DNA from: Holophagaceae bacterium | GTDB lineage: Bacteria; Acidobacteriota; Holophagae; Holophagales; Holophagaceae | Length of the DNA stretch: 64,000 nt | Direction of reading: 5' to 3' | Assembly (NCBI GenBank): GCA_021286765.1 | Contig: JAJTBS010000001.1 | Span: forward strand, 682,001 to 746,000 | In this document: piece after piece, positions 33,946-43,172 of the stretch | Layout of the letters: every line of letters begins with the position of its first letter | Position numbering within the stretch: the first letter of the stretch is position 1 | The notes under the pieces: model-generated | The model's input: the letters and a program-made list of their open reading frames with translations, nothing else | Database searches by the model: none | What the model was told of the DNA's origin: nothing | Program-made: the position numbers and the translations under genes

Positions 33946-35469
33946 CTAGAAGCTGTACCGCAGGGCGGCGCCGAGGATGTTGATTTCGGCCTTGATGGTG
34001 CCGTTGAGGTTGCCGCGGGTCAGGTTCGGATCGGCCGAGGTGGTGCCGGAGGTGAGCTGGACCTTGCCGTCGGTGATGATGAGGCGGCTGTAGCCGAAGT
34101 CCAAAGTCGTCTGCTTCGAGACGGCATAGCTGGCCCCGAAGGACACCCACTTGCGGTCGTTGTCGGGAATGCGGGGCGTGCGGTGGGCATCGTCCACGGC
34201 GCTCTTGTCGAAGGCGACGCCAGCGCGGAAGGTCCAGGCCTGGTTCAGCTTCCACGTGCCGCCCAGGGACACGAAGGTGGTGTCGTTCCAGTTCTCGTCC
34301 GTGATGGATTCGGTGGTCTGGGGCGGCGTGTTGTCCGTGAATTTCACCACGAGGGTCTTGAAGGAGGACCAGGTGGTGCGGGCCACCTCACCCTGGAGGG
34401 CGAAAGTGGGGGACACCTTCCAATCGAAGCCCAGGGAGAGCGTGGAGGGCAGGTTGAGGTCGGCCTGGCCCTTGCCATTCTTGAGACCCGCGCCGGTGAG
34501 GGCGGCGTAGTCTGTGGCGGGCATGGAGGCGGGGTATTCGAAGGAGGCGTTGCCCTTCAGGGTCATGTCCATGGCCGCCTGGTAGGCCAGGCCGATGCGC
34601 AGATCCTTGGAAGGCTCGAAGATGATGCCGGCCTTCCAGCCGTAGCCCCAGCCATCGCCCTTCAGGCCGGCCTTGCCGTCCCAGGCGCCGGGGATGGCGT
34701 AGCCGGGGGTGCCGAAGGTGGCGTTGGGCAAGCCCATGGCGACGTTGGCCACAGGGCTGTTCTGCCCGGGGCCGGGCGAAACCGTGGACAACCCTGCAGC
34801 TGCCAGGCCAGCCCCCACCTTCAGCGCGAGCGCCGTGCCGTAATCCACGGCGTTGGTGAGTTCGGCATCCGCCTTGCGCGCGATGAACGCGGCGCCAATG
34901 GTGACGCTGTTGCTCACGCGGTAGGCGATGCTGGGGGAGATGTCGATGGTCTTCAGGTCGGACTTCAGGGCATGGTAGCGGCCGATCCAGTTGGCGTCGT
35001 ACTCCGTGGTGAGGCCGTAGGGCACGTTCAGCGAGAGGCCGATCTTCAGGTCCTTGTTCACGCTGTACATGATGTTGAACTCGGGCAGCACGGCGGAGAT
35101 GGCGGCGTTGCCGTGGCTGGCGGGGCCGGAGATGGTGTTCAGGTTGGCGCCGGTGTTGGGGGCGCTCTGGAAACCGAGCCCAAGCAGCGTCGGCGTGCGG
35201 GTCGCCGAGGCATTCTCGAACTTGGCGCTCAGACCGACGTAGGTGCCGCCCATGGAGAACTGCCAGCCATCGTACTGGGTCATCACCGCCGGATTGAAGA
35301 AGAGGGCGCTGATGTCGCCACCGCCCGCGCTGATGCCGGCGAAGGCGTTGCCCTGGGAAAGCGGGCTCTGCTCGCGGAGCTGGAAGCCGCTGGCCTTGGC
35401 CTGGGGCGCGAAGGCCCCGGCCGCGACCAGGGTCAGGGCGGTGAGGGTGAGACGCGAACGATGACTCAT
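33946..35469 (-). CDS. FadL/OmpP1-family outer-membrane transporter
   Basis: 507 residues. The signal peptide has a hydrophobic core and cleavage near AKAS (about 22-26). The FadL N-terminal plug signature SGFQLREQSPLSQGNAFAG, then ISALFFNPAVM (about 26-60) follows. Many amphipathic strands lead to a C-terminal LGAALRYSF barrel ending. These proteins import long-chain fatty acids or other hydrophobic compounds; the substrate here is unknown. The frame extends upstream to 35547, but ATG 35469 gives the signal peptide. AGGAG is about 11 bases upstream. Confidence 0.87.
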   Translation of the reverse strand: MSHRSRLTLTALTLVAAGAFAPQAKASGFQLREQSPLSQGNAFAGISAGGGDISALFFNPAVMTQYDGWQFSMGGTYVGLSAKFENASATRTPTLLGLGFQSAPNTGANLNTISGPASHGNAAISAVLPEFNIMYSVNKDLKIGLSLNVPYGLTTEYDANWIGRYHALKSDLKTIDISPSIAYRVSNSVTIGAAFIARKADAELTNAVDYGTALALKVGAGLAAAGLSTVSPGPGQNSPVANVAMGLPNATFGTPGYAIPGAWDGKAGLKGDGWGYGWKAGIIFEPSKDLRIGLAYQAAMDMTLKGNASFEYPASMPATDYAALTGAGLKNGKGQADLNLPSTLSLGFDWKVSPTFALQGEVARTTWSSFKTLVVKFTDNTPPQTTESITDENWNDTTFVSLGGTWKLNQAWTFRAGVAFDKSAVDDAHRTPRIPDNDRKWVSFGASYAVSKQTTLDFGYSRLIITDGKVQLTSGTTSADPNLTRGNLNGTIKAEINILGAALRYSF

Positions 35470-35611
35470 AGGGGCATAGCTCCTGACCCGGTGTCCCGGG
35501 GTGAGTGGCTGTCGCCAGCCGTTTCCGTAGGGATGAAGATGGACCACGATACCAAATCATCCCGGTCCTGCAACCTCTCTCGGCACCCGGATCCGGCCGC
35601 CCATTCACGAT

Positions 35612-36373
35612 CTAGGCATCACCAACCATTCGCGGCGAAAGCGCCTCCTGGAGGCTCTGGCCCGCGGCCAGCTCCGACACCAAGGCAGAGCCGATGACCG
35701 GGGTGGCCCCCAAGGAGCGCACGCGTGCCAGGCTGTGCGGATCCGACAGGCCGAAGCCCACCGCCAGGGGACGGTCCGTGAGCGTTCGCAGCGGATGGAT
35801 GCGCGTGGACACAGGTTCCAGGTCCATGGCCTGCCCCGTGCCAGTGACGCCAAGCCGGGCCACCACATAGGCGAAGCGCTGGGCGAAGGGCGAGACGGTC
35901 CCGGGATCCGGGCGTTCCGAGAGGATCTGCCGGGCCCGCGCCAGGGAGGTGGTCGGCGCCAGCAGGGGCACCATGGGATAGCCCGCCGTGCGCAGGTCCG
36001 CCTCGAAGACAGGCTCCTCGCCGAAGGGCAGGTCCACCACGAGCAGAGCCTTCACGGGCGTCGGTGCGAGCAGTGCCTTCAAGCGCCCTGCCCCGATCTG
36101 GAGCAGCGGATTGAGGTAGGTGAAGAGGATCAGGTCGGGGCAGTCCGTGACCCCGGCCAGGGCCTCCAGCACCCGAAGCGGCGTGGCGCCGCGGTCGATG
36201 GCCCGCTGGGCCGCAGCTTGCAGCACGGGGCCATCGGCGATGGGATCGGAGTGCGGCAGGCCCAGTTCGAGGGCTTGAAGCCCCAGGGCTTTGGCTTCCG
36301 CCAGCAGGCCGGGCAAGGCCCCCAGCGAGGGATCGCCGGCCATGAGGAAGGGCAGCAGTGGATTCAGGCTCAT
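35612..36373 (-). CDS. trpA: Tryptophan synthase alpha subunit
   Basis: Cleaves indole-3-glycerol phosphate to indole and glyceraldehyde-3-P and passes indole to TrpB. 253 residues, TIM barrel. The catalytic Glu and Asp are in LELGLPHSDPIADGP (about 37-51). The phosphate-binding loops are VGFGLSDP and VIGSALV. It is the last gene of the trp operon and starts 1 base after the trpB stop. No terminator is apparent downstream before the fadL gene. Confidence 0.94.
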   Translation of the reverse strand: MSLNPLLPFLMAGDPSLGALPGLLAEAKALGLQALELGLPHSDPIADGPVLQAAAQRAIDRGATPLRVLEALAGVTDCPDLILFTYLNPLLQIGAGRLKALLAPTPVKALLVVDLPFGEEPVFEADLRTAGYPMVPLLAPTTSLARARQILSERPDPGTVSPFAQRFAYVVARLGVTGTGQAMDLEPVSTRIHPLRTLTDRPLAVGFGLSDPHSLARVRSLGATPVIGSALVSELAAGQSLQEALSPRMVGDA

Positions 36374-36374
36374 C

Positions 36375-37555
<1,181 letters not shown>

Positions 37556-37559
<4 letters not shown>

Positions 37560-38176
37560 GGAAGCTCCAGGGCGTGGGCGGCAAGGATGAAGGCGGCGAC
37601 TTTGGAGGGGTCTTTGATGCCAGGCGAAGCCTCGAGGCGGCTGGCGGCGTCCACGCCGAGGACATTCGCGCGCACCGTTGCTGCCAGCCCGCGCACCCGC
37701 TCCCGCAGGTTCGTGGCGTCGAGGCCACCGGCGAGCAGGAAGGCCCCCGGAGGGGGATGGGCCATGGCGTGTCCCTGCCCAGAGCCGCCGGCCACGCCGG
37801 TGATCTGGGGGCTGGGTTCCCAGAGGTAGAGATCCGCGGCCACCGGGACCTGGCTGGGCTCATCGGGCCAGGGCAGCAGGACCTGGAGTCCCGCCCCACG
37901 CAGCATCTGGACACCGGCTTCCCGCGTGGCCGAGGGAAGGTAGGGCTGGACCCAACGGAAACCGTGACGGTGCGCCGTGGCCAGGATCGCCTCCGCGCAC
38001 GTGGCCACCTGAACCAGCACGGCCTTGTCCAGGTAGGGCGCGGCCACTGTCAGATCCTGACAATGCCTGGGGCTCGGAGCATGGTTCACGAAGCCGAGCA
38101 GATCGGCCCCATGCCCCGCGGCGACGGCGGCGTCTTCCGGGCGGACCAGGCCGCAGACCTTGGCGAGGGTTGTCAT
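37556..38176 (-). CDS. trpF: Phosphoribosylanthranilate isomerase
   Basis: Amadori rearrangement of PRA to CdRP. 206 residues, TIM barrel. It starts with KVCGLVRPEDA, which contains the general-base Cys, and has the SPR phosphate contact early. The C-terminal phosphate-binding segment is LAGGLDATNL followed by GVDAASRLEASPGIKDPSKV. The catalytic Asp is the D in that GVDAAS. The usual VQLHG segment is replaced by WVQPYL, a mild divergence. It is coupled to trpC and trpB by 4-base overlaps. Confidence 0.9.
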
Positions 38177-38997
38177 CGCAGGCCCGCCAGGATGCGGCTG
38201 AGGAAGTCGCGCGGATCGGGGCTGCGCATCAGGGCTTCGCCGATGAGGACGGCATCGAAACCCGCCCGCAGGGCCGCGCAGGCATCCTCGGGCGTGGCCA
38301 GGCCAGACTCCCGGATCAGCACCGCCTCGGGGAAGGCCCGCCGCAGGGGCTCGGCCGTGGGTACGCCGAGGTTGAAGGTGGAGAGATCCCGCGCGTTGAT
38401 GCCCACGAGCCTCGCACCGGCCTCCTGGGCGAAGCCCACTTCGGTCATGTCGTGCAGCTCGACCAGAGGTTCGAGGCCCCGGGCCCGCGCCGCCTCGGAG
38501 AAGGCAGCGGTGTGCTCCTTCAGCACCCGGGCGATGAGCAGGACCGCCGCGGCCCCACAGGCTTCCGCTTCGGCCAGCTGGGCCTCAGCGACCACAAACC
38601 CCTTGTAGAGCCGGGGCTGCTGCAGGGCCGAGGCAGCTCTGAGCTGGTCCGCCGAGCCCTTGAAATAGGCGGGTTCCGCCAGGATGGAGAAGGCCGCGGC
38701 GCCCCCTTCCAGGTAGGCCTGCAGCTGCGCCAGCAACGGCGTGCCCACGGCGAAGGGGCCCAGCGAGGGCGAGGCCTGCTTGAACTCGGCGATGACCGCG
38801 CCGCCCCGTGCCCGGGCCTCGCGCCGCAGGGCCGCCTCGAAGGGGCCGGGCTCGGCCAGCCGGGCGCGGCTCGGCGCGGCCGGAGATCCCAGGGTGGCCA
38901 GTCGGGCCAACTCGGAGACCAGCACCCGCTGCAGATGGGAGCGCGACCCCAGGCCGGTCCCGTGGACGAGGCCGGCCGGATCCGGCAGCCCGCTCAT
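38173..38997 (-). CDS. trpC: Indole-3-glycerol phosphate synthase
   Basis: Closes the indole ring from CdRP. 274 residues. The substrate-binding IAEFKQASPSLGPF (about 69-82) contains the conserved Glu-Lys; A replaces the more common R in K-R-x-S-P. ILAEPAYFKGS, VGINARDLSTF with Asn-Arg, and IRESGLATPEDA complete the TIM barrel. The N-terminal helix region is longer than usual by about 20 residues. It is a stand-alone enzyme, not fused to TrpF. 4-base overlaps join it to trpD and trpF. Confidence 0.94.
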   Translation of the reverse strand: MSGLPDPAGLVHGTGLGSRSHLQRVLVSELARLATLGSPAAPSRARLAEPGPFEAALRREARARGGAVIAEFKQASPSLGPFAVGTPLLAQLQAYLEGGAAAFSILAEPAYFKGSADQLRAASALQQPRLYKGFVVAEAQLAEAEACGAAAVLLIARVLKEHTAAFSEAARARGLEPLVELHDMTEVGFAQEAGARLVGINARDLSTFNLGVPTAEPLRRAFPEAVLIRESGLATPEDACAALRAGFDAVLIGEALMRSPDPRDFLSRILAGLR

Positions 38998-40028
38998 GGC
39001 TGCACCTCCGGAGCGGCGAAGGGTGGCGGGAAGCCCCGGTCGATGTGGGCCCGGGTCTCGCGGAGGGTGTCGGCCAAGCCTTCCAGCCCGGCCTGCCGGT
39101 GCAGGTGCAGGGCCAGGGCGGCCTGGAGGGCCACCGCGTCAGCCACGGCGGGGCGGAAATCCGCATGGGCGGCCCCTGCGAACAGGCCCCGGGCCACGGC
39201 GAGCGCCTCGGCCCGATCCGCCACTCGCAGGGCACTCCGAGCGGGTGTCGCCAGTCCCAGCTCCCGAGGGACCAGCACCTGGCGGTCGCCGACGCGGCCC
39301 TCGGCCACGGGCAGGATCATGGTGGGTCCCTCGATGGAGGCCTCGTCCAGCCCCCTCCCTTCTGCGTCCTTGCCATGGACAACGAAGGCCCGGCGCAGGC
39401 TCGTGCGACGCGCCAGGGCACCGGCCATGGGCGCAAGCAGTTCCTCCCGGGCGACGCCCAGCAGCTGCAGCGGCGGATGGCCTGGGTTCAGCAGGGGACC
39501 CAGCAGGTTGAAGATGGTGGGGATGCCCAGGCGCTTCCGGATCTCCCGCAAGCGGCCCAGCAGCGGATGGTAGGCCGGGGCGAAGAGGAAGGCGAAGTGG
39601 CGGGTGGCTAGGTCCCTTTCGAGGTCCGGAATGGGCCGGGAGAGGTCGTAGCCCAGAGCCTCCATGAGGTCGGCGCTGCCGCAGACACCGGTGGCGGCCC
39701 GGTTGCCGTGCTTGACGACGGGCACGCCGAAGCGGGGCAGCAGCAGGACGGAGAGGGTGCTGAGGTTGGCGGTGGAGGCGCCATCGCCCCCCGTGCCCAC
39801 CACGTCGATGGCGCCCTCAGGCACCGCCGGGAATGGCACGGCCACGGCCGAAAGGGCGTCCGCAAAGGCCGCCAGCTCATGGGCCTCGGGCACCCGCTGG
39901 GCCAGCAGGGCCAGGCAGGCGCCCACCAGGAGCGCGTCCGTGTCTTGGTCGATGAAGATGCGCATGAGCTCGGAGGCGGTGGCTTCCGGCAGGGGACGGA
40001 TGGGGTTGTGCGTCGTGAGAAGCGTCAT
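38994..40028 (-). CDS. trpD: Anthranilate phosphoribosyltransferase
   Basis: Transfers phosphoribosyl from PRPP to anthranilate. 344 residues. The PRPP-binding GTGGDGASTANLST (about 83-96) and the anthranilate-binding HGNRAATGVCGSADLMEALG (about 110-130) are clear. Later NLLGPLLNPGHP is also conserved. The start at 40028 overlaps the trpG stop; the long upstream open frame is antisense to nothing and is overlapped by trpG, so it is not used. Confidence 0.95.
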   Translation of the reverse strand: MTLLTTHNPIRPLPEATASELMRIFIDQDTDALLVGACLALLAQRVPEAHELAAFADALSAVAVPFPAVPEGAIDVVGTGGDGASTANLSTLSVLLLPRFGVPVVKHGNRAATGVCGSADLMEALGYDLSRPIPDLERDLATRHFAFLFAPAYHPLLGRLREIRKRLGIPTIFNLLGPLLNPGHPPLQLLGVAREELLAPMAGALARRTSLRRAFVVHGKDAEGRGLDEASIEGPTMILPVAEGRVGDRQVLVPRELGLATPARSALRVADRAEALAVARGLFAGAAHADFRPAVADAVALQAALALHLHRQAGLEGLADTLRETRAHIDRGFPPPFAAPEVQP

Positions 40029-40600
40029 CGGGATTCCTTGGCCAGACGAAGGAAGTTCGCAAGCATGGCCGGACCGTCCGGCGTGAGGATGCTTTCGGGA
40101 TGGAACTGCACGCCCCACCGCGGCAGCTGGCGGTGGGCCATGGCCATGATCTCGCCGCCGGGGCTGCGCCCGGTCACCCGCCAGCAGGCCGGCAGGCTGG
40201 AAGGCTCCGCGATGAGGCTGTGGTACCGGCCCACCGGCAAGCCCATCGGAAGGCCCTCGAAGAGGCCGGTGCCATCGTGCTCCAGCGCCGTGGCTTCGCC
40301 ATGCAGGGGTTCGATGGCCCGGATGACCTTCCCGCCCGTGGCCGCGGCCAGGGCCTGGTGCCCGAGGCACACGCCCAGCAGCGGCACGCCCCAGTCCGAC
40401 GCCGCCAGAGCCATGTGGGCGGGGCTTTCGGTGGGATGGCCCGGCCCAGGTGACAGCACCACGGCTTCGGGGCGAAGGGCCTTCGCCTCGGCCAGGGAGA
40501 TGGCATCGTGGCGGACCACACGCACCTCGGCGCCCAGGGTCTCGAAAGCCTGGACCAGGTTGTAAGTGAACGAATCCAGCGCGTCGATGAGCAGGATCAC
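40025..40600 (-). CDS. trpG: Anthranilate synthase glutamine amidotransferase subunit
   Basis: Supplies ammonia from glutamine to TrpE. 191 residues, class I amidotransferase. The catalytic triad comprises Cys in LGVCLGHQALA (about 75-85) and His-Glu in VQFHPESILTP (about 164-174). The oxyanion loop SPGPGHP lies near residue 50. In many bacteria this subunit also serves aminodeoxychorismate synthase, and a pabC-like gene is elsewhere in the window. Overlaps trpE and trpD by 4 bases each. Confidence 0.94.
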   Translation of the reverse strand: MILLIDALDSFTYNLVQAFETLGAEVRVVRHDAISLAEAKALRPEAVVLSPGPGHPTESPAHMALAASDWGVPLLGVCLGHQALAAATGGKVIRAIEPLHGEATALEHDGTGLFEGLPMGLPVGRYHSLIAEPSSLPACWRVTGRSPGGEIMAMAHRQLPRWGVQFHPESILTPDGPAMLANFLRLAKESR

Positions 40601-42012
40601 CGCACACCCCCTTCCAGCTTCACGCCCAGGGCCTGGGCGATGGCGCCGAGCTTGTGCAGGGTCTCGAAATACTCTGCCTCCGGACGGGAGGCTCGCACCA
40701 CGCCGGCCCCGGCCTGGATATGGGCGACGCCGCCCGCATAGACCGCCGTTCGCAGGATGAGGGCGGTATCCAGCACGCCGTCGGCTCCCAGCCGCAGCAG
40801 CACGCCACCGTAGGGACCGCGCTGTTCCCCCTCCAGCTCCGCGATGCGCTGGCAGGCCCGGAGCTTGGGCGCGCCGCTGACCGTGCCCGCCGGGAAGGCC
40901 GCAGCCAGCACATCAAGGGCATCCACGCCCGCCTTCAGTTTCGCCCGCACCGTGGTGGTCAGGTGCAGCACGTGGCTGGTGCGCTGCAGGGCCAGGGGCA
41001 GCTCCACGCGCACGCCGCCGGGTACGGCCACCCGGCCCAGATCGTTGCGGGCCAGGTCCACCAGCATTTGGTGTTCCGCCAGCTCCTTGGGGTCGCGCTT
41101 GAGGGCCTCGAAGCGTTGCGCATCCTCCTCGGCGCTGGCCCCCCGAGGCACGGTGCCCGCGATGGGCAGGGTCTCGGCCTCCCCCTCCTGGACGCGGACC
41201 AGCATCTCCGGCGAGGCGCCCACCAGGGCGAAGTCCCCCCACTCGAGCAGGTAGCCGTAGGGGCTCGGATTGAGGCGCCGCAGGCGGCGATAGGCCTCCA
41301 GCGGCAGGGGCGGGTCCTCGATGCGGAAACGCTGGCTGGGCACCAGCTGGTAGATGTCGCCATCAAGGATCAGTTCCTGGGCCGCCGCCACGGCGCTTTC
41401 GTAGGCGGCGCGGGTCAACTGGGCCTGGGCGCTGGGCTTCGCAGCCCCAGGGCCGGGATCCTTGGCCCCTTCCAGCAGCCGAGCCTTCAGGGCCGCCAGG
41501 CGGTTGAAGCCAGCTTCGGGAACCCTGGCCAGGGTCTGCAATTCGGCCACCTGGTGCAGGTGGTCGAAGACCAGGGCCGTGTCGAAGCGGCGCACCCAGA
41601 GCCCCGGGAGGCCGAGGCTGTTCTTCGCAGGCAGCGGGAGGCTGGGCTCCATGGCCCCCATGGCCTCGAACCCCAGGTATCCCGCGCAGCCCACACCCAC
41701 CGGAAGCGGCTCCCGCAGGACCGGCAGCGTGGAAGCGGGATCGTGGAGGGTCGCCGTGGGAGCGGCGCCCGCCAGGGCGCGGATGGCCTCGGCCCAGCCG
41801 GTGGCCGGGGCGGGCAGCCGGCACTCGCTGGCCCCCTCGATGAGCACGAAGCTGTGCCGTCCGACGCGCTCGCCCTGGTCGCAGGATTCCAGCAGGAGGC
41901 TCGCCCCCGAGGAGCGCAGCGCGAGGTAGGCCGCGAGGGGCGTCAGGAGGTCCGCAGGAAGCGGGTGGCGGATGAGGTGCATGGGGGACTGGGACTGGGC
42001 TTGCTCAGACAT
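40597..42012 (-). CDS. trpE: Anthranilate synthase component I
   Basis: Converts chorismate and ammonia to anthranilate. 471 residues. The N-terminal feedback-binding element ASLLLESCDQGERVGRHSFV (about 36-55) contains the LLES motif linked to Trp inhibition. The chorismate-binding C-terminal half has IYQLVPSQRF, PIAGTVPRG, LVDLARNDLGRV, GTVSGAPKLRA and IQAGAGVVRASRPE. It is the first structural gene, 17 bases after the attenuator hairpin. Confidence 0.95.
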   Translation of the reverse strand: MSEQAQSQSPMHLIRHPLPADLLTPLAAYLALRSSGASLLLESCDQGERVGRHSFVLIEGASECRLPAPATGWAEAIRALAGAAPTATLHDPASTLPVLREPLPVGVGCAGYLGFEAMGAMEPSLPLPAKNSLGLPGLWVRRFDTALVFDHLHQVAELQTLARVPEAGFNRLAALKARLLEGAKDPGPGAAKPSAQAQLTRAAYESAVAAAQELILDGDIYQLVPSQRFRIEDPPLPLEAYRRLRRLNPSPYGYLLEWGDFALVGASPEMLVRVQEGEAETLPIAGTVPRGASAEEDAQRFEALKRDPKELAEHQMLVDLARNDLGRVAVPGGVRVELPLALQRTSHVLHLTTTVRAKLKAGVDALDVLAAAFPAGTVSGAPKLRACQRIAELEGEQRGPYGGVLLRLGADGVLDTALILRTAVYAGGVAHIQAGAGVVRASRPEAEYFETLHKLGAIAQALGVKLEGGVR

Positions 42013-42029
42013 GGATTCATTCCATAACG

Positions 42030-42055
42030 AAAAAGCCCGACCGCGGGGTCGGGCT
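42030..42055 (-). terminator. trp attenuator terminator (region 3:4)
   Basis: On the minus strand, AGCCCGACC (42055-42047) pairs perfectly with GGTCGGGCT (42042-42034) across a short CCGC loop and is followed by TTTTT. It lies between the leader peptide stop and trpE. Confidence 0.88.
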
Positions 42056-42135
42056 CGGAGGGTCCGGAATGGCGTCGGCCGCTAGGCCTCGCACTGGGAG
42101 CCGTCCGAGCCCAAACGCCACCGCCAAGCCTCGGA
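42047..42135 (-). promoter_or_regulatory. trp operon attenuator: alternative RNA pairings 1:2 and 2:3
   Basis: Region 1, TCCGAG (42135-42130), just upstream of the Trp codons, can pair with CTCGGA in region 2 (within 42114-42104). Region 2, TTGGGCTCGGA (42114-42104), can instead pair over 11 bp with region 3, TCCGAGCCCGA (42059-42049), which contains the 5' arm of the terminator. A ribosome stalled on the Trp codons would cover region 1, allow 2:3 and so prevent the 3:4 terminator. This is the classical ribosome-mediated attenuation layout. The structures are seen in the sequence; the mechanism is inferred from the known E. coli model. Confidence 0.82.
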
Positions 42136-42174
42136 GGAGAGGCCCTGGCAGGGGATGGGGAAGGACAGCGGCAT
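42082..42174 (-). CDS. trpL: trp leader peptide TrpL (30 aa, two Trp codons)
   Basis: A 31-codon frame from ATG (42174-42172) to TAG (42084-42082). It encodes a 30-residue peptide with Trp at positions 17 and 19 (EAWRWR). The Trp codons lie directly upstream of antiterminator region 2. It does not overlap trpE, and its stop lies 26 bases before the terminator hairpin. No good ribosome site is seen. The distance to the TTGACA promoter suggests the transcript may begin close to the ATG. The peptide itself is not expected to have a function beyond sensing charged tRNA-Trp. Confidence 0.8.
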   Translation of the reverse strand: MPLSFPIPCQGLSSEAWRWRLGSDGSQCEA

Positions 42175-42181
42175 GGAAGCG

Positions 42182-42211
42182 ATGAAACCCCATCGGTCCA
42201 GCCCCTGTCAA
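42182..42211 (-). promoter_or_regulatory. Probable trp operon promoter
   Basis: A consensus -35 TTGACA (42211-42206) with an 18-base spacer leads to a weak -10 TTTCAT (42187-42182). The start point would then fall within a few bases of the leader-peptide ATG. The -10 assignment is tentative. Confidence 0.5.
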
Positions 42212-42245: not shown

Positions 42246-43172
42246 ATGGAACCTGAGCGCCCCACCACCATTCACACCGAGGAGGAGCTGGCCCCCCGGG
42301 GACCCTGGCCCTTCTTGCGCGAGACCCTGGCCGGTGGCTTCACCCGCTGGGGCTGGGGGCTCATGGGCGGCTGGATGCTCGTGCTGCTGGGCCCGGCCCT
42401 GGGCTGGGCGGGCCACCTGCGCCGCGCCGCCGGCTGGAGCGCCCTGCCCAGCCACTGGGGCGAGAGCCTCAGCGCCCGGGACCTCTGGGAACTCTGGGAG
42501 AACGGGGGCCTGCGCCACCGCCTCACGAACTCCCCCACGGTGCACCTCTTCGGCCTCGGCCTCGTCCTCGTGCTCTGGTGCGGCTGGCGCATGCAGGCTG
42601 AGGTAGCGGGTCAGAAGGCCCGCCTGGGCCCCTGGCTGCTGGGTGCCCTGGACACCCTGCTGATCGGCGTGGTACCGCTTGGGCTCGTGGCCTGGATCGT
42701 CGATCTGGGCCTCGCCAAGGCCGGGGGTTCCGGCCTGGACGCCCTGGGCTGGGCGGCCTTCTTCGGCCGCCCGCTCGTGTGGATGTCCCTGGTCGCCGCC
42801 CTGAATGTCCAGTGGTGGCTCTGCCGCCTGGGCCGCTCGGCTGGACTGGCTCATGGCTACCGCGCTCACCTCGGGATCAGCTTCATGCGGCTCTGGTCCC
42901 ATCCCATCCAGTGGGGTCTGCTTTCCATCGGCGGCGCCGCCCTGAGGGCTCTCCCGCCCTTCCTGGTGCTGCTCCTGGCGTGGCGACTGGGTGGCGGCAC
43001 CACGTTCCGCGTGTGGCTGTTCCTCCTCCTCCAGCTTCTGGTCACCGCGGTCAACGGCTGGGTGATGAGTTGGCTGCTCCGGGCCACGGCCCGGTTCTGG
43101 AACCATGACGTCCTGGTGCAGGATGTCCGCATGACTTTGAAGGAAACACTCCGTGATGCCGAAGCCCATTAG
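42246..43172 (+). CDS. Multi-pass membrane protein of unknown function
   Basis: 308 residues with about six hydrophobic segments (Trp/Leu/Gly-rich, e.g. GGWMLVLLGPALGWAG; WLLGALDTLLIGVVPLGLVAW; FLVLLLAWRLGG). A charged N-terminus and a polar loop (about 70-110) are present. No family is recognised. The start is uncertain: ATG 42246 is used, ATG 42222 is also in frame. The 3' end overlaps the 5'-nucleotidase-domain gene by 17 bases, so it is probably in the same operon and may assist the exported phosphatase system. Confidence 0.65.
   Translation: MEPERPTTIHTEEELAPRGPWPFLRETLAGGFTRWGWGLMGGWMLVLLGPALGWAGHLRRAAGWSALPSHWGESLSARDLWELWENGGLRHRLTNSPTVHLFGLGLVLVLWCGWRMQAEVAGQKARLGPWLLGALDTLLIGVVPLGLVAWIVDLGLAKAGGSGLDALGWAAFFGRPLVWMSLVAALNVQWWLCRLGRSAGLAHGYRAHLGISFMRLWSHPIQWGLLSIGGAALRALPPFLVLLLAWRLGGGTTFRVWLFLLLQLLVTAVNGWVMSWLLRATARFWNHDVLVQDVRMTLKETLRDAEAH

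Follow-up and report, generated by a model that had tools for sequence, protein, structure and literature searches.

The window, i.e., the whole 64,000-nt stretch of Holophagaceae DNA that was analysed, carries on its minus strand a run of open reading frames (ORFs) that match the TrpE, TrpG, TrpD, TrpC, TrpF, TrpB, and TrpA models, preceded by a short leader ORF, an intrinsic terminator, and a predicted promoter (Table 1). The TrpE protein scores 400.8 bits against TIGR00564, below the curated cut-off of 517.7, and is for this reason regarded as a divergent type of TrpE. At the two ends of the locus, an ORF directly 3' of trpA (33946-35547, minus strand) resembles by eye a FadL/OmpP1-type outer-membrane protein, and an ORF divergent from the trp promoter (42246-43172, plus strand) is without an NCBIfam match. 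A preliminary description of the leader had proposed an attenuator of the Escherichia coli trp type, with TCCGAG as region 1, TTGGGCTCGGA as region 2 (42114-42104), TCCGAGCCCGA as region 3 (42059-42049), and a terminator ahead of trpE; each of these elements, as well as the leader ORF, is found on the minus strand where it had been placed. The 145-nt region folds with a z-score of -3.29, and none of 200 dinucleotide shuffles reached as low an energy.

Table 1. Features of the trp leader and operon, listed from the distal genes to the promoter (positions in the window).
Feature	Position	Strand	Remarks
trpG, trpD, trpC, trpF, trpB, trpA	35612..40600	-	closely packed or overlapping; model matches
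trpE	40597..42012	-	ATG at 42012; TIGR00564 match 8.6e-120
Intrinsic terminator (3:4)	42030..42055	-	9-bp stem (42055-42034, AGCCCGACC/GGTCGGGCT), then U-tract; 99.4% paired over 60 sequences
Region 3, antiterminator 3' arm	42051..42059	-	UCCGAGCCC
Stop-codon hairpin	42077..42088	-	GGCC-UAGC-GGCC, leader stop codon in loop; from RNAalifold; inside extended antiterminator
Leader ORF	42082..42174	-	30 aa, MPLSFPIPCQGLSSEAWRWRLGSDGSQCEA*; predicted leaderless
Region 2	42100..42112	-	GGGCUCGGA for 2:3, overlapping GGACGGC for 1:2
Trp codon 19	42118..42120	-	
Trp codon 17	42124..42126	-	Trp in 33/46 Geothrix
Inner hairpin	42128..42143	-	GCCUC(N6)GAGGC, immediately 5' of the Trp codons; 96.1% of cells paired
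Region 1 of the preliminary description	42130..42135	-	TCCGAG; exists in this genome, helix with region 2 not conserved
Revised region 1	42163..42169	-	GCUGUCC, codons 2-4; pairs with GGACGGC 42106-42100
-10 box	42182..42187	-	TTTCAT; spacer 18, ends 7 nt before leader ATG
-35 box	42206..42211	-	TTGACA; predicted trp promoter

Searches with TrpE place the genome in a genus with 46 other species; named matches of equal identity belong to Geothrix (among them G. limicola, G. paludis, G. terrae, and G. fermentans) and to other Holophagaceae. For comparison, the DNA upstream of trpE was extracted from 62 loci. A leader ORF of 28-31 aa with a Trp cluster, followed by a terminator, is found in 46/46 Geothrix regions and in 8/8 regions from three further genera (g4, g5, and g6). 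The leader frame is open in all 46 Geothrix regions, as the preliminary description would predict, and the sole indel within it is 3 nt long (i.e., one whole codon); the non-coding part downstream is shorter, yet it has accumulated several 1-nt indels among the same species. Conservation of the Trp codons, the second expectation, holds for codon 19, which is Trp in 46/46 Geothrix, but not throughout for codon 17, which has been replaced by Tyr or Ser in 13 of them. The intervening position 18 is itself Trp in 37/46, such that W-W-W is commoner in the genus than the W-R-W variant of this genome; the resulting pair of non-adjacent Trp codons counts against an attenuator here. Outside the Trp cluster the amino acids are weakly constrained (pN/pS = 0.81 in Geothrix), a value that fits constraint acting mainly on the RNA and the Trp codons and is weak as evidence of translation.

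Both helices that involve region 3 have been maintained by compensatory change. For the terminator (3:4), double changes affect four pairs, in 27 cells over 60 sequences, a count above all 500 shuffles; for the antiterminator (2:3), 95.2% of cells are paired over the same 60 sequences with 11 double-changed cells, and within Geothrix alone 97.6% are paired with seven C-G to U-A double changes. Uncompensated substitutions in these two pairings had been named beforehand as the result that would speak against an attenuator, and the proposal withstood that test. The stop-codon hairpin (98.9% of cells paired) is nearly invariant, and covariation therefore cannot test it; likewise, the extended antiterminator that includes it is 97% paired with no covariation. 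A reading in which the terminator is constitutive and merely sets a fixed level of expression, the short ORF being non-functional and its translation irrelevant, would be in keeping with the low constraint on the amino acids around the Trp cluster, but it is very improbable given the invariance of Trp19, the frame-preserving indel, the covariation of the antiterminator, and the recurrence of Trp clusters in the corresponding position of distant leaders that differ in sequence.

Region 1 had to be reassigned. The pairing of TCCGAG with CTCGGA exists in this genome, but as a conserved 1:2 helix it was rejected: only 82.2% of cells are paired, of its outer two pairs one is broken in 25 and the other in 22 of the 46 sequences, and no double change occurs. 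A better-kept partner of region 2 is GCUGUCC, near the beginning of the ORF, whose helix with GGACGGC is paired in 97.8% of cells and shows modest covariation, with two pairs double-changed in three cells (at most 1/500 shuffles scored as high). In other genera, duplex shuffling gave mostly non-significant values for this revised helix (p 0.008-0.70).

Folding with ribosome footprints masked, averaged over 46 species, put the probability of the terminator at 0.91 for ribosome-free RNA, 0.64 when a ribosome is stalled at the first Trp codon, and 0.97 when it is at the stop codon, the corresponding values for 2:3 being 0.08, 0.47, and 0.02; in these models, both helices thus shift in the direction expected of an attenuator. 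If the RNA extends no further than region 3, equilibrium folding favours 2:3 whichever of the three ribosome states is assumed (mean 0.85-0.93), and since such an RNA is blind to the state of the ribosome, the decision would have to be kinetic and co-transcriptional, or else taken on the full transcript. The 1:2 helix is weak in the energy calculations (0.00-0.05).

The promoter stands at a constant distance from the leader ORF. All 54 Holophagaceae leaders have TTGACA 35-39 nt ahead of their ATG, the distance being 37 nt in 45 of them, and TTTCAT recurs at a spacer of 17-18, 6-7 nt before the ATG, in 41/65 leaders; the best -10 match to TATAAT averages 3.7/6 in leaders compared with 2.0 in shuffles. 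From these two positions, the transcript is predicted to begin with the A of the ATG or with a nucleotide adjoining it. A duplex with the anti-Shine-Dalgarno sequence of -5 kcal/mol or lower at -15 to -4 was found in 0/54 Holophagaceae leaders, as opposed to 13% of shuffles, and the lack of a Shine-Dalgarno site together with the TTGACA spacing suggests that the Geothrix trp leader mRNA is probably leaderless. The same attenuator could instead lie behind a conventional 5' untranslated region transcribed from a more distant upstream promoter, in which case the spacing of TTGACA would be incidental. In favour of this arrangement, once the search range is extended to -20, a run rich in G some 14-17 nt 5' of the ATG shows some pairing with the anti-Shine-Dalgarno sequence, although as a candidate ribosome-binding site this run was rejected as too far from the start; the fixed TTGACA-ATG distance, the recurrent -10-like box, and the usual Shine-Dalgarno interval, empty in all 54 leaders, make the conventional arrangement unlikely. 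Further against it, Holophagaceae leaders with another TrpE type (g3, g7, and g9) do have Shine-Dalgarno-like sites (-4.7 to -7.3 kcal/mol), and these are the leaders in which the Geothrix-type TTGACA-ATG spacing is absent. A leaderless start is also suggested more widely, as TTGAC occurs 37-39 nt before an ATG in 10/24 trp leaders of other acidobacterial families, where 300 shuffles gave 0.16 on average and never more than 2; -10-like boxes lie 7-10 nt ahead of the ATG. Approximately 13% of acidobacterial genes were predicted to be leaderless in a survey (PMC3160421). Two side observations concern promoters of this kind: most Geothrix share a block (ATCAAACCACAC) immediately 5' of the trp -35 box that may be part of the trp promoter, and four other loci of the same genome (L250, L253, L254, and L256; by eye two TetR-like, one MarR-like, and one response regulator) have TTGACA 34-38 nt before an ATG and are probably transcribed into leaderless mRNAs.

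Control of the operon chiefly by TRAP, a T-box, or TrpR repression, with the leader in a secondary role, would gain some plausibility from the TrpR-family genes present in 13/47 Geothrix genomes (G008, G013, G017, G038-G043, G045, G046, G048, and G049). Such a gene was, however, not found in the genome studied here (95.6% complete), and neither the gathering thresholds nor relaxed ones gave a credible match in the window to an Rfam regulatory family, be it the trp leader, the T-box, or another, so that main control of this type has very little probability.

In E. coli, ribosome-mediated trp attenuation relies on a leader ORF in which Trp codons are clustered, antiterminator and terminator structures that overlap, a U-tract, and a biosynthetic operon downstream. 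The Geothrix region has the same components: a short leader ORF with its Trp cluster, an antiterminator that shares region 3 with the terminator and is supported by covariation, an intrinsic terminator with its U-tract ahead of the first structural gene, and trp biosynthesis genes behind it. With the leader frame and the Trp cluster conserved and 2:3 and 3:4 covarying, the E. coli-type attenuator first proposed for this acidobacterium is upheld, and we infer from the sequence that a ribosome-mediated transcription attenuator sensing charged tRNA-Trp very probably controls trpEGDCFBA in this Geothrix species. Transcription would start within one or two nt of the leader AUG, and the leader ORF would be translated leaderless. 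When charged tRNA-Trp is scarce, a ribosome would stall at Trp17-Trp19 and cover the middle of the ORF, allowing region 2 (42112-42104) to pair with region 3 (42059-42051) and take up the 5' arm of the terminator, whereupon polymerase would read through into trpE. When charged tRNA-Trp is plentiful, the ribosome would reach the stop codon and disturb the hairpin within the antiterminator, region 2 would pair again with the beginning of the ORF, and the 3:4 terminator would form.

Several traits set this putative switch apart from that of E. coli, viz., the probably leaderless leader, the placing of the better-kept region 2 partner in the opening codons of the ORF, a stop codon 3' of region 2 and within a hairpin, the lack of a detected TrpR in this genome, and the lack of a match to any Rfam regulatory family. 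Leaderless trp leaders have precedents. The Sinorhizobium meliloti trpL/rnTrpL RNA begins with the trpL ATG according to mapped transcripts, transcriptional repression of that trp operon is absent, and trans functions have been reported for both the trpL peptide and the RNA (PMC7298713); its 14-aa leader before trpE(G) is shorter than the 30-aa Geothrix leader, which resembles it as a predicted leaderless trp attenuator. Similarly, trpL1 of Streptomyces lividans, a trpE leader with WWW, is leaderless as judged from mapped transcripts (PMC8079986); trpL1 and other actinobacterial leaders share with Geothrix the position before trpE and the (here predicted) leaderless start, whereas trpL1 encodes 18 aa ahead of a monocistronic trpE in a different phylum and differs in sequence. 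In the three-hairpin model for Corynebacterium glutamicum ilvBNC, the first hairpin is proposed to be an anti-antiterminator that blocks leaderless initiation (PMC11857589); the revised 1:2 helix of Geothrix could act likewise on its own leaderless ORF, although the C. glutamicum system concerns branched-chain amino acids and has a different sequence. Given that leaderless trp leaders are already known from Sinorhizobium and Streptomyces, the probable leaderless start is the most interesting trait of the Geothrix attenuator rather than a novelty in itself.

Comparable leaders appear to be widespread in the phylum. Up to 28/90 sampled acidobacterial trpE upstream regions have an ORF with a Trp cluster and a terminator behind it, compared with 8/900 shuffles (0.9%); the former figure is an upper estimate, as a few of the ORFs (e.g., L148 and L167) resemble the ends of ordinary proteins, and none of the 28 comes from the sampled genomes of family f9. 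Upstream of trpE in three other Acidobacteriota (L159, L165, and L202), the leaders contain runs of Tyr, Phe, and Trp (HPYYTYYWWFKR, HPRYYYWWYMR, and NYYFWWYYLSGW, respectively), and it is possible that a single leader senses several aromatic amino acids in these cases. Homologous leaders with a promoter spacing of 35-38 nt also precede trpE in Lysobacteraceae and Opitutaceae (L105, L108-L110, L112, and L113), where the operons are homologous to that of Geothrix and trpG, trpD, and trpC follow with 57-75% identity (no trpC match was found in L113, a shorter locus). The TrpE proteins of Geothrix, g4, g5, g6, Lysobacteraceae, and Opitutaceae form one clade (100/100), outside which those of g3, g7, and g9 fall, and the Lysobacteraceae TrpE is nested beside a sequence from the Holophagaceae genus g5 (94/92). 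Because leader module and operon are homologous and TrpE forms a single clade, the trp operon has most likely moved between phyla together with its attenuator; the Lysobacteraceae nesting hints at export from Holophagaceae, a direction that rooting and sampling leave unproven.

According to a survey of 2010, hardly any of the attenuators predicted in Acidobacteriota had a function associated with them (PMC2965389), and literature searches returned no described acidobacterial trp attenuator. A bolder and distinctly tentative reading, possible though on present grounds somewhat doubtful, would be that the leaderless mRNA is doubly locked, the 1:2 helix both hiding region 2 and closing the start codon to ribosomes, that promoter, leader, and trp operon have been exchanged as a module between Acidobacteriota, Gammaproteobacteria, and Verrucomicrobiota, and that leaderless trp leaders are an old and frequent acidobacterial design. 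Acidobacteriota are abundant in soils, and Geothrix is a culturable genus of soils and sediments; with its 46 covarying sequences, it provides a testable case that would extend classical trp attenuation to another phylum. Moreover, a single family in which the switch appears to occur both leaderless and behind a Shine-Dalgarno site would offer a natural comparison between the two.
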